NCBI GenBank assembly: GCA_030156575.1
Contig: JASGMG010000003.1
Span: forward strand, 1-36,589
Origin: Patescibacteria group bacterium
GTDB lineage: Bacteria; Patescibacteriota; Saccharimonadia; Saccharimonadales; Saccharimonadaceae
Length of the DNA: 36,589 nt
Direction: 5' to 3'
A program made the position numbers and the translations under genes. The notes below the pieces were generated by a model that was not told the DNA's origin, did no database searches, and was given only the letters and a program-made list of their open reading frames with translations. Shown piece by piece: positions 32,704 through 36,011 of the stretch (position 1 is the stretch's first letter; each line of letters starts with the position of its first letter).

Positions 32704-32734
32704 TATAAAAAATTCACCACTATAGGTGGTGAAT
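32704..32734 (-). terminator. Rho-independent terminator for the minus-strand accessory operon
   Basis: Minus: ATTCACCAC-CTATA-GTGGTGAAT followed by TTTTTAT. Confidence 0.85.
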
Positions 32735-32923: not shown

Positions 32924-33649
32924 TTACCAGCCTTGATAGCTTTTAACTTCTTGTATCTTTTGAGCGAATTGGTTGCTTAAGTCTTTTGCATTATTAAAAG
33001 GCGTGTTTAAGTCGGCTGTATAGCCTTCGTTGATGCTTTCCGCAGCGTACAAAGCAATATCGCATTGATTCTGGGCTTTTATTGCAAGTTGAGAGGCATC
33101 TTTTTTTAATTGGGTCTCGGTACTATCTGGTAAACCAGCAAGAATACCTATCCCAATGGCTTCGGTTGTGACATTTTGTTGCATTGACCTGGCTTTTTTA
33201 AGAGATGCCGCATCGCCTAACCCAGTTAGATAGTTTATGTTAGATATTTCAGCCGAAAGTTTCAATGCATCTCCGACCCACTGCCTACGTAGCTGTTTAT
33301 TCTCTTCGTCCATCTTCTGTTTATATTCTGAGTCCATTTGTGCCTGAGATGTTGTGCTAGTTGTTTGTGCTGAGGTACTTTCTGGGGTAGTGGATGATTC
33401 GTTGTTTGTCGATTCGATAGCTGATGATTTAGTGTTTGTTTCTGGCTCGGTGGTCTTGGACATGCTGTTTGTGGCTTCTTGAGCCGAGGAATTCGTTTTT
33501 TGATGATTATTCTGATTAGTTGCGAAACTTACCGACCCGATAACAACGCCCATTACTAAAACGCTAATCACGGAATACTTAACAATCCGATTGCGTGTAT
33601 CATACTTGTTAGCTGCTTCGAATTCTTCTTTCCATCCTAAATTATTCAT
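32924..33649 (-). CDS. Membrane-anchored protein with Ser/Thr-rich linker and helical extracytoplasmic domain
   Basis: TM helix VISVLVMGVVIGSVSFA, roughly 65-aa S/T/E/N-rich linker, helical C-terminal domain. Confidence 0.7.
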   Translation of the reverse strand: MNNLGWKEEFEAANKYDTRNRIVKYSVISVLVMGVVIGSVSFATNQNNHQKTNSSAQEATNSMSKTTEPETNTKSSAIESTNNESSTTPESTSAQTTSTTSQAQMDSEYKQKMDEENKQLRRQWVGDALKLSAEISNINYLTGLGDAASLKKARSMQQNVTTEAIGIGILAGLPDSTETQLKKDASQLAIKAQNQCDIALYAAESINEGYTADLNTPFNNAKDLSNQFAQKIQEVKSYQGW

Positions 33650-33679: not shown

Positions 33680-34213
33680 CTAATCATTCCAATATTCAGA
33701 CGTTGGTTTATTAGCGGCATCGCCGACACAGGGGACTGCGGCTGTCCCCATGATAAGTGCTATTCTATTTTTATCAATGCAATTGAATTCATCCTGACTA
33801 AGCCCACCTGGTAGAAGGTTTAATTTGCTAGATACAGTACTGCCATAGACGAGTAATGCAATTATTGTAAGTGTTGTAGCGATAAACCAAGAACTAAAGG
33901 TGATAATCTTTGTCCGTTTGTCATTCTTTGTTAATAAGATTGTCGTTATTGCGAATATTGCAATAATAATGGGAATGATAGCGATATTGAATATATTTTC
34001 TGGGTTAAAACTAATGTCATTGGCTTTTTGCTTTACGTATCCAGATTGGCAAAGACCTTGTGCGAAGAAACTAGTACAGTCCACTGTGGTTTCTGTTGTT
34101 TTGAAACTACTGACATAAAAAGTTAAACATATAAGAAAAAAAGTGATTATGCCAACAATGAAAACGATAGACTTATTTGTTTGATTTTGTGTTTGAGGCT
34201 TTTCTGATAGCAT
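33680..34213 (-). CDS. Polytopic membrane protein, first gene of accessory operon
   Basis: Three hydrophobic helices; AAAGGAG SD upstream; downstream of structured leader. Confidence 0.7.
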   Translation of the reverse strand: MLSEKPQTQNQTNKSIVFIVGIITFFLICLTFYVSSFKTTETTVDCTSFFAQGLCQSGYVKQKANDISFNPENIFNIAIIPIIIAIFAITTILLTKNDKRTKIITFSSWFIATTLTIIALLVYGSTVSSKLNLLPGGLSQDEFNCIDKNRIALIMGTAAVPCVGDAANKPTSEYWND

Positions 34214-34244
34214 GATTTCTCCTTTGGTTAAAGGATGTCATATA

Positions 34245-34378
34245 AAACAAACAGACACCCATACTAGGGTGTCTAAATCCAGTAGAAGAACTATGTCCAA
34301 CTACGTTCGCATGAGTGTCTGTCTTATAGACATAGTTCACGCACTTTTTAGGCACGGTTTCTTATACTGGATTTAGAC
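34245..34378 (-). ncRNA. Structured leader RNA / candidate riboswitch-attenuator
   Basis: P1 34271-34290/34359-34378 (19 of 20 pairs), P2 34289-34297/34329-34337 (9 bp), terminator-like hairpin 34253-34274, antiterminator pairing 34251-34258/34315-34322. Confidence 0.6.
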
Positions 34379-34384
34379 TCTTTT

Positions 34385-34390
34385 ATTATA
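34385..34390 (-). promoter_or_regulatory. -10 box of the leader RNA
   Basis: Minus-strand TATAAT, 6 nt before the first base of P1. Confidence 0.6.
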
Positions 34391-34792
34391 AACCATTTGA
34401 AGTAATACCCCTATAGCACCCGAATTCGTATCAAATTCGACCTATTGGGTGTTAATTAGTTAAGAGTCTCTCTTGTCCACAAAAAAATTATTTCCAAGTA
34501 AATCAGGTATCGTTTAGGTTACAGATTACACGCTTGGCATACACAAGAGTTAATCTTTTAATGGGGTAGGGTTCACTTAGTGGCTAATGATTGGTGTATG
34601 TATATAACTATATGCTATTACATAGTAGCGATTGGCTTGTGCTATCATTTTGACTGAGTATCTTTATTCGCATTCTGTGCTACAGCTAAGGTGTGAAATT
34701 AAGATATTTTGCATTCTAAATCAAAAGATGGGTTGTAGGTCGTTTTGGATTTCAAATTATAATTTGGGATATTTACTCTCTGGTAAAAATAT

Positions 34793-35221
34793 CTAGTCTG
34801 AAAGGCAATCTATCGGCATAGGAAACGATTCAATGAACTTACCCAGCATATCTGGGTCTTTTTTCAAATCAACACCAATCCAGTTATCAAGAGAGTTTTG
34901 TTCTATAAGTTCCTCTTTTTCTACATTGAATAGGTTATCGTCAAACCAAATGAAGGGTCTTGAAAAATTTATACTACTTGTTTTAGGAGATAGAATCCTA
35001 GTTGTTGGCTTTATTTTGTTCAGCAATTCCGCCACATCTGGCTCAAATAGATGGGCTATCTGCCTAACCGTGACATTAGCATCGCCGTTACAGCGAGTGG
35101 TTAGCCAATATGTCGTATCTGGATATTTATTTAGAACATACCTAAGAAATTCGTTTACGTAATTTGCAGGTTCGAGACTTTTAGTAAGCAGTACACCATC
35201 AACATCTAAATATATATCCAT
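34793..35221 (-). CDS. HAD-like protein
   Basis: MDIYLDVDGVLL (DxDGV motif), WLTTRC, PFIWFDDNL. Confidence 0.72.
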   Translation of the reverse strand: MDIYLDVDGVLLTKSLEPANYVNEFLRYVLNKYPDTTYWLTTRCNGDANVTVRQIAHLFEPDVAELLNKIKPTTRILSPKTSSINFSRPFIWFDDNLFNVEKEELIEQNSLDNWIGVDLKKDPDMLGKFIESFPMPIDCLSD

Positions 35222-35276: not shown

Positions 35277-36011
35277 ATGTCGAAAGAATCAGAATGGCAA
35301 AAGCGTTATCGCAAACTATTTGAACATTACGTGGATAGCTCCACTGGTGAAATTTTCGATTCTGAGTTTAATAAGAAGATAATTGAACTACGCAAGATGG
35401 GGGATAAAATAACCGAAAGGGTTTCGTCTGAACTTTTTGGCAACCCACCTATACACTGGCTAATGTTGGAATATAAATTTCCAAAAGCTATGTATGATTT
35501 TATCGTTAAATACATAATAGATGATGTTATTGATTATTCATTATTACGCTCTGGTTTATATCTTGTTTGCCCCCTGGATGAGTCGGCTATTTCCGCCGAC
35601 TATCGTAGCGAGCAAGAAGGATGGTTCGATTATACAGGCGGATGGATACCCGACTTAGAAAAGGGAAGAGAATTTTATGATGAGCTGTTTGAGCTTAAAC
35701 TAGTCATCAGTAACGATGCAACCAACGAACAGATTGTCGATTTTATAAGGCGTAATGCAAAATATATTAAAGATAAGCAAAAAGTCTATCGCATAAATGG
35801 CGAATTAGAAGGGCGTGTTCGTGAACCACTAAACAGAAAAAGAGATTTACGTATCAAAGAGCTAGTCAATGACGGTATTACCCACAAAGAAGCTGCTACA
35901 ATCATCAATAAAGAGTTGCCTAACTCGTGTATTACTTATGTAGATGTAGCCAAAATTATCCAACGGTTAAAGTCTGACGGATATAAATTCACGCCATACA
36001 ATGACATCTAA
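35277..36011 (+). CDS. Hypothetical protein with C-terminal HTH-like segment
   Basis: 244 aa; KRDLRIKELVNDGITHKEAATIINKEL... resembles a recombinase/regulator HTH. Confidence 0.65.
   Translation: MSKESEWQKRYRKLFEHYVDSSTGEIFDSEFNKKIIELRKMGDKITERVSSELFGNPPIHWLMLEYKFPKAMYDFIVKYIIDDVIDYSLLRSGLYLVCPLDESAISADYRSEQEGWFDYTGGWIPDLEKGREFYDELFELKLVISNDATNEQIVDFIRRNAKYIKDKQKVYRINGELEGRVREPLNRKRDLRIKELVNDGITHKEAATIINKELPNSCITYVDVAKIIQRLKSDGYKFTPYNDI

Follow-up and report, generated by a model that had tools for sequence, protein, structure and literature searches.

We describe a leader RNA from a Patescibacteria genome (Saccharimonadaceae) that we interpret as a cis-acting transcription attenuator, in which an apical loop would be claimed either by a pseudoknot or by the terminator of the same leader, and as a member of a new RNA family. 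Judged from sequence comparisons, the probability of this reading is about 0.85. The leader lies on the minus strand of the window, by which we mean the whole stretch of 36,589 nt that was analyzed (GenBank assembly GCA_030156575.1, contig JASGMG010000003.1). A promoter, a structured leader, an intrinsic terminator, and a gene are found on one strand, and the terminator and antiterminator pairings are mutually exclusive and both kept by covariation, as expected of the attenuator class. Comparison among members supports helices P1 and P2, the terminator, the pairing of the loop with the terminator, the pseudoknot, the overlap of the last two pairings, and a fixed order of promoter and gene.

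Elements of the leader and its promoter

The predicted -10 element, TATAAT (34385..34390; this and the following features are on the minus strand), lies 6 nt upstream of P1, and transcription probably starts at or near the first P1 base (34378). The window promoter was missed by a promoter scan because it has no -35 element; support for its -10 element comes from comparison across members. TANNNT occurs within 22 nt upstream in 82 of 86 nonredundant members, where 39.8 would be expected, and at exactly 6 nt in 54 of them. An extended TG at -15/-14 is found in 63%/71% of members, and no conserved -35 was detected across the 86.

P1 is formed by GTCTAAATCCAGTATAAGAA (34359..34378) and TTCTTCTACTGGATTTAGAC (34271..34290), which pair at 19 of 20 positions, and P2 by AACTATGTC (34329..34337) and GACATAGTT (34289..34297), with an internal segment of 21 nt and an apical loop of 31 nt. 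The terminator, also recovered by a terminator scan, has an 8-bp stem of AGACACCC (34267..34274) and GGGTGTCT (34253..34260), directly followed by the U-rich tract GTTTGTTTTATA (34241..34252). Its 5' arm includes the last AGAC of the P1 3' strand, and the GUC/GAC foot of P1 competes with the GAC/GUC of the terminator. All of these elements had been described in the original prediction, from the spacing of the -10 element to the single mismatch in P1, and each was confirmed in the sequence.

The apical loop carries a putative antiterminator segment, ACAGACACTC (34313..34322), which is complementary to the 3' half of the terminator; the terminator 3' arm therefore has rival partners in its own 5' arm and in the loop. 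The original prediction had noted an 8-bp match here. ACAGACAC (34322-34315) does pair with GTGTCTGT, but the length of the antiterminator was understated about twofold: the pairing runs for 10 bp continuously with one G-U, or for 16 bp with the terminator loop and tail counted in (L067). Overlapping the antiterminator by at least 2 nt is TCATGCG (34308..34314), whose TCATGC is the partner of GCGTGA (34337..34342). This pairing, first noted as an alternative one, is present and corresponds to a conserved pseudoknot strand. A Shine-Dalgarno sequence, AAAGGAG, follows at 34219..34225.

The window leader folds at -47.7 kcal/mol (z = -5.3 against 200 shuffles). The opposite strand gives a similar folding z-score, so the strand is fixed instead by the promoter, the terminator, the covariance model, and the gene order. 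In the single-sequence minimum free energy structure, the loop pairs as GCGUGA/UCAUGC in place of P2; since comparative data support both helices as real, we read them as a pseudoknot. We also observed a short inverted repeat, CGAATTtgatacgAATTCG, at 34420-34441 (minus strand), upstream of the promoter, which is a possible operator.

A family of leaders in Patescibacteria

A plain DNA search with the leader against 199 relatives returned no match at E ≤ 0.001 beyond the window itself. A weak match from another family of the order (E = 0.02, 123 nt aligned at 71% identity) turned out to be genuinely homologous; it keeps the promoter, P1, P2, the pseudoknot, the terminator, and the gene start, shows compensatory differences in P2 and in the loop-terminator pairing, and stands before an unrelated gene. 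Further members were recovered by searching around the genome of this homologue. Alignment of two sequences with MAFFT misaligned the stems. Covariance model R1 was built from six sequences and R2 from 70, and the window leader is matched as a whole (34248..34381) by both, with E = 1e-21 and E = 1.6e-19, respectively.

Within the order, at least 85 of 393 sampled genomes have the family (R1, E ≤ 0.1); it also occurs sporadically in other classes of Patescibacteria and on one phage contig. The R1 matches that were inspected by eye share this architecture, although a few divergent members parse less cleanly. A phylum-wide sample of 380 genomes gave matches in 28, of which 12 are outside the order. 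Credible R2 copies numbered 0 to 4 per genome (31 genomes); the window's own genome has three, the window copy on C19 and two others at C35:20031-20156 and C10:7699-7840. We count at least 121 distinct members, 86 of them below 80% identity with 60 nt upstream. A consensus DNA pattern run against all GTDB contigs returned mostly chance matches, which were sorted with R1, and pattern searches of viral contigs yielded one true member (L204). The patchy distribution of members across genomes suggests horizontal spread.

Several individual loci deserve mention. A clear member (L116:91-212) that lacks TATAAT lies in a 2.6-Mb termite-gut Oscillospiraceae bin; it is the sole strong match labeled as another phylum and may reflect transfer out of the phylum or contamination. 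Two loci (L040 and L041; G051:C11 and G204:C30) are 100% identical over 1,850 bp in genomes assigned to separate families within the order, which indicates either recent transfer or a misbinned contig. In L006, two RNA copies lie near each other on the same strand (1397-1525 and 1876-1981), the second of which contains N bases.

Any long hairpin with a terminator might be expected to match such models, and the weakness of the first homologue (E = 0.02) and the weak matches of some antisense strands could be taken to mean that the family is an artifact. However, 48 genomes of other phyla gave only chance-level matches, none better than E = 0.0165 or 22 bits, whereas most members score at least 37 bits, and features outside the model recur in the matches, namely, the loop-terminator match, the pseudoknot, and a -10 element at 6 nt. 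We consider the chance of an artifact negligible. Antisense model matches represent the palindrome read from the other strand and were excluded.

With Rfam 15, only tRNAs reached the cutoff, whether the window was searched at the gathering threshold, the window and L014 at a permissive E-value, or the loci of 18 diverse members. The original prediction, which had set the leader apart from T-box and 6S RNAs and would have lost its claim to novelty to an Rfam match, was upheld on these points, as neither model nor any other Rfam family matches. A literature search found no earlier description of the leader family, with thin coverage of subscription papers.

Covariation of the helices

In an alignment of 70 sequences, which was fitted to the structure and is hence somewhat favorable to it, 95.8% of cells are paired, compared with 67.4% after shuffling. 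Two-sided changes occur in 28 of 30 pairs, with 570 compensatory two-sided cells observed against 157 expected, and pairing falls to about 40% when one strand is slid by one base. P2 (helix 4 of the alignment) is paired in 96.2% of cells and shows two-sided changes in 8 of 8 pairs.

Swap tests, which are independent of column-by-column alignment, compared cognate with exchanged strands among 67 members below 80% identity; in these tests and the shuffles, relatedness was handled by this identity filter only. Cognate strands were more stable for P1 (z = -31.5), P2 (z = -28.7), the terminator (z = -10.7), and the loop with the terminator (z = -18), while a control pairing of the loop with P1 gave z = +3.6. 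A weaker signal between the upstream strand and the terminator (z = -3.4) may come from the relatedness of the sequences and gauges the size of such an effect. The original prediction had been staked on homologous leaders in other genomes and on covariation in P1, P2, and the loop-terminator pairing; homology and covariance-model searches found the former, and all three pairings covary. We regard it as nearly certain that the leader represents a real structured RNA family.

Loop-terminator pairing and the pseudoknot

Across the 70 sequences, the loop-terminator pairs are paired in 94.5% of cells, with 58 two-sided cells against 20.5 expected, and pairing collapses to 41 to 62% when the strands are slid. 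The base that directly follows the terminator stem pairs with the loop as GC in 44, CG in 19, UA in 2, and AU in 1 of 70. Swapping the terminator loop alone costs a mean of 4.5 kcal/mol (z = -17.9), and swapping the three bases after the terminator stem gives z = -11.4. Because this covariation and these costs lie outside the stem, the loop-terminator pairing cannot be explained as a side effect of the stem. The partners of the apical loop are the terminator loop, the 3' arm, and often the U-tract, over a mean of 14.6 bp. The mean energy of the antiterminator is -22.6 kcal/mol, compared with -9.8 kcal/mol for the terminator. These are duplex values, which leave out what it costs topologically for a hairpin loop to pair with a strand outside it, and they therefore do not reveal the ON/OFF balance or polarity.

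The pseudoknot between the upstream strand and the loop has a swap z of -12.8; calls in single members are noisy, and the pseudoknot is weak in some members (L137, L243, and L108). Its footprint overlaps that of the antiterminator in 65 of 67 members (97%), by at least 3 bases in 63, which indicates that the two folds compete. At one loop-terminator position, 61 of 70 sequences have G-U, though A-U should do at least as well, and the loop G may therefore be needed in the other fold. Invariant unpaired bases are few, namely, four loop adenines (A111, A113, A133, and A134 in alignment A5). In a longer member (L036:1404-1560), GGTGTCTAAACC at the 5' end complements GGTTTAGACACC over its full length, and P1 could thus also mask the terminator 5' arm. 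Attenuation through an upstream open reading frame was rejected, as members differ at the loop AUG, many having AUGGGC and others ACGGCA.

The long inverted repeat with GACANCC/GGNTGTC motifs, the patchy distribution, and an outline that by eye recalls attC (R boxes GTCTAAA / TTTAGAC) could equally belong to a DNA element, such as a set of operator repeats, a recombination site (attC-like or Xer), or the end of a mobile element. We find this very improbable, since the arms covary with RNA pairing preserved, G-U included (GU at one position in 61 of 70), members keep a fixed orientation and fixed distances to promoter and gene, the C of the integron core AAC/GTT is absent by eye, and copies are single and stand before unrelated genes. 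Integron attC itself was rejected as a candidate: by eye, GTCTAAA / TTTAGAC in the window departs from the R boxes RYYYAAC / GTTRRRY, and the P1 sequence varies among members.

Downstream genes

In the window, the leader precedes a gene for a 177-aa protein with predicted membrane segments (33680..34213, minus strand), followed by one for a protein of 241 aa that has a single N-terminal membrane segment and a Ser/Thr-rich linker (32924..33649, minus strand). With 30 nt between them, the two are probably cotranscribed, and a terminator-like hairpin 3' of the second gene (32712..32734, minus strand) is a possible end of the transcription unit. Both genes are orphans. The first has no relatives in 199 genomes or in viral contigs, which left the family out of reach of a search by gene homology. 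The neighboring genes at 34793-35221 (minus) and 35277-36011 (plus) have no significant family matches, the former being weakly HAD-domain-like, and this part of the window gives the impression of an accessory-gene island.

Across the family, 95 of 100 members have a gene start downstream, at a median of 34 nt past the RNA. These 95 genes represent 57 unrelated families, including 42 singletons, and no common pathway, which is usual though not obligatory for riboswitches, was found among them. Their products have a median length of 156 aa, and 70 of the 95 have a predicted membrane segment. The Shine-Dalgarno sequence and the two genes of the original prediction are present in the window, where both genes encode membrane or secreted proteins, and a Shine-Dalgarno sequence between terminator and gene is shared by the family. 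The expectation of one membrane-protein gene downstream does not extend to the family with its unrelated cargo. Recognizable cargo includes DUF4352, DUF805, bacterial PH domain, and pilin-like proteins and a DNA methylase. Some cargo matches PHROGs superinfection-exclusion or moron families; part of this similarity is confined to the N-terminal membrane segment, while L072 and L209 match phrog_806 (unknown function) over their full length. The viral-collection contig L204 encodes a terminase small-subunit-like protein and an HNH endonuclease, and its one member stands before a gene for a 90-aa membrane protein, on the strand opposite to the adjacent genes on both sides.

Two small proteins recur as cargo. 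The first, of 75 to 76 aa (MKDRKTYKILT...NRxYLG...DLxYMDxxFDEAM), was found in L223, L246, L250, L254, L261, L279, and L290, with one copy in the window's own genome; by eye it resembles TM2-type membrane proteins, and the L246 protein has no Pfam match. The second, a membrane protein of 51 to 57 aa ending in NHYWHA/T, was found in Saccharibacteria (L087, L089, L145, L206, and L213), and L087 matches the PHROGs moron family phrog_14499.

The fixed position of the genes bears on whether the RNA acts in cis. A promoter, a compact hairpin of about 130 nt, a strong terminator, and few unpaired invariant bases would also fit a stable small RNA, 6S-like or trans-acting, that lies before genes by accident. 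Such an RNA would have no need of a loop matched to its terminator locus by locus, terminator loop included, and the gene starts at a median distance of 34 nt in 95 of 100 members, the several different copies per genome, and the lack of an Rfam match to 6S or other RNAs also speak against it. We therefore think a small RNA of this kind unlikely.

Proposed switch

In the attenuator that we propose, transcription would start at P1, and P1 and P2, whose folds are evidenced by covariation, would form first. The strand upstream of P2 could then form the pseudoknot with the 3' portion of the apical loop, a pairing that has covariation support. When free, the apical loop would act as the antiterminator, capturing the terminator loop, the 3' arm, and usually part of the U-tract through a pairing that covaries; this capture would block the terminator hairpin and let RNA polymerase reach the gene. 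When the pseudoknot holds the loop segment, the shorter terminator would form and transcription would stop, as the overlap of the two pairings suggests. A signal that stabilizes or melts the pseudoknot, be it a metabolite, a protein, or a physical condition, would set the outcome.

What is sensed is a separate matter. The original prediction proposed a riboswitch or attenuator; the attenuator reading is supported, and the word riboswitch goes beyond the evidence, as it implies direct binding of a small ligand or ion and the leaders have few invariant unpaired bases. Their number is below that of most metabolite aptamers, which makes small-molecule sensing uncertain, and we hold a small-molecule riboswitch to be a tentative reading, plausible at somewhat short of even odds. 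There is close to an even chance that the attenuator instead responds to a general transcription factor or another protein, or to a physical cue, for example temperature, as the diverse cargo without a pathway in common and the scarcity of invariant unpaired bases would suggest, although the retained pseudoknot and the conserved loop adenines would equally suit a small-ligand pocket.

The occurrence of a promoter-switch-terminator cassette before many unrelated, patchily distributed genes, mostly for small membrane proteins, makes it resemble a portable module for controlling accessory cargo. More speculatively, and with appreciable doubt, the leaders may form a new ligand-sensing riboswitch class of Patescibacteria and their phages, spread horizontally as a portable cassette, that holds accessory envelope or antiphage cargo off or on in response to a signal of host contact, infection, or stress.

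Discussion

The terminator/antiterminator principle is already known from other leaders; among the families that we considered, none resembles the leader in its loop-capture design or in its portable, gene-independent distribution. ZTP/pfl, preQ1, and fluoride riboswitches resemble the leader in being pseudoknotted upstream of an intrinsic terminator, with a leader strand that competes with the terminator. In contrast to them, the leader family has no Rfam match, its cargo has no metabolic theme, and its apical loop itself captures the terminator loop, 3' arm, and often the U-tract over about 14 bp. Cobalamin riboswitches, too, use base pairing between an aptamer-domain loop and the expression platform, but this kissing contact is short, whereas the loop-to-strand helix of the leader family, which is without a model match, spans about 14 bp. 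T-box leaders share the choice between terminator and antiterminator in a 5' leader; they differ in that the leader family has no T-box model match and its variable complementarity is internal, to its own terminator. 6S RNA is likewise a long hairpin with its own promoter and terminator, but the leader family does not match Rfam 6S, sits in mRNA leaders, and has a loop matched to the terminator. Finally, phage moron cassettes also combine an autonomous promoter with a small membrane-protein gene, some of the cargo matches PHROGs moron or superinfection-exclusion families, and one leader copy lies on a phage contig, opposite to its neighbors; unlike morons, most copies were found in cellular contigs and carry an attenuator in the leader.

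To our knowledge, almost nothing is known about gene regulation in the ultrasmall Patescibacteria (CPR), and the leader family would represent a widespread structured regulatory RNA in this group. The switch design is simple, with one loop strand common to the pseudoknot and to a full-length grip on the terminator. If a ligand exists, the family would constitute a new riboswitch class. The leader could also supply an inducible control part for Patescibacteria, for which such parts are still to be developed according to a 2024 perspective (PMC11665869). Its position before small, poorly characterized surface-protein genes, some of them related to superinfection exclusion, points to an accessory regulon that may be phage-related, and the covariance model provides a search handle for accessory cargo of this kind.
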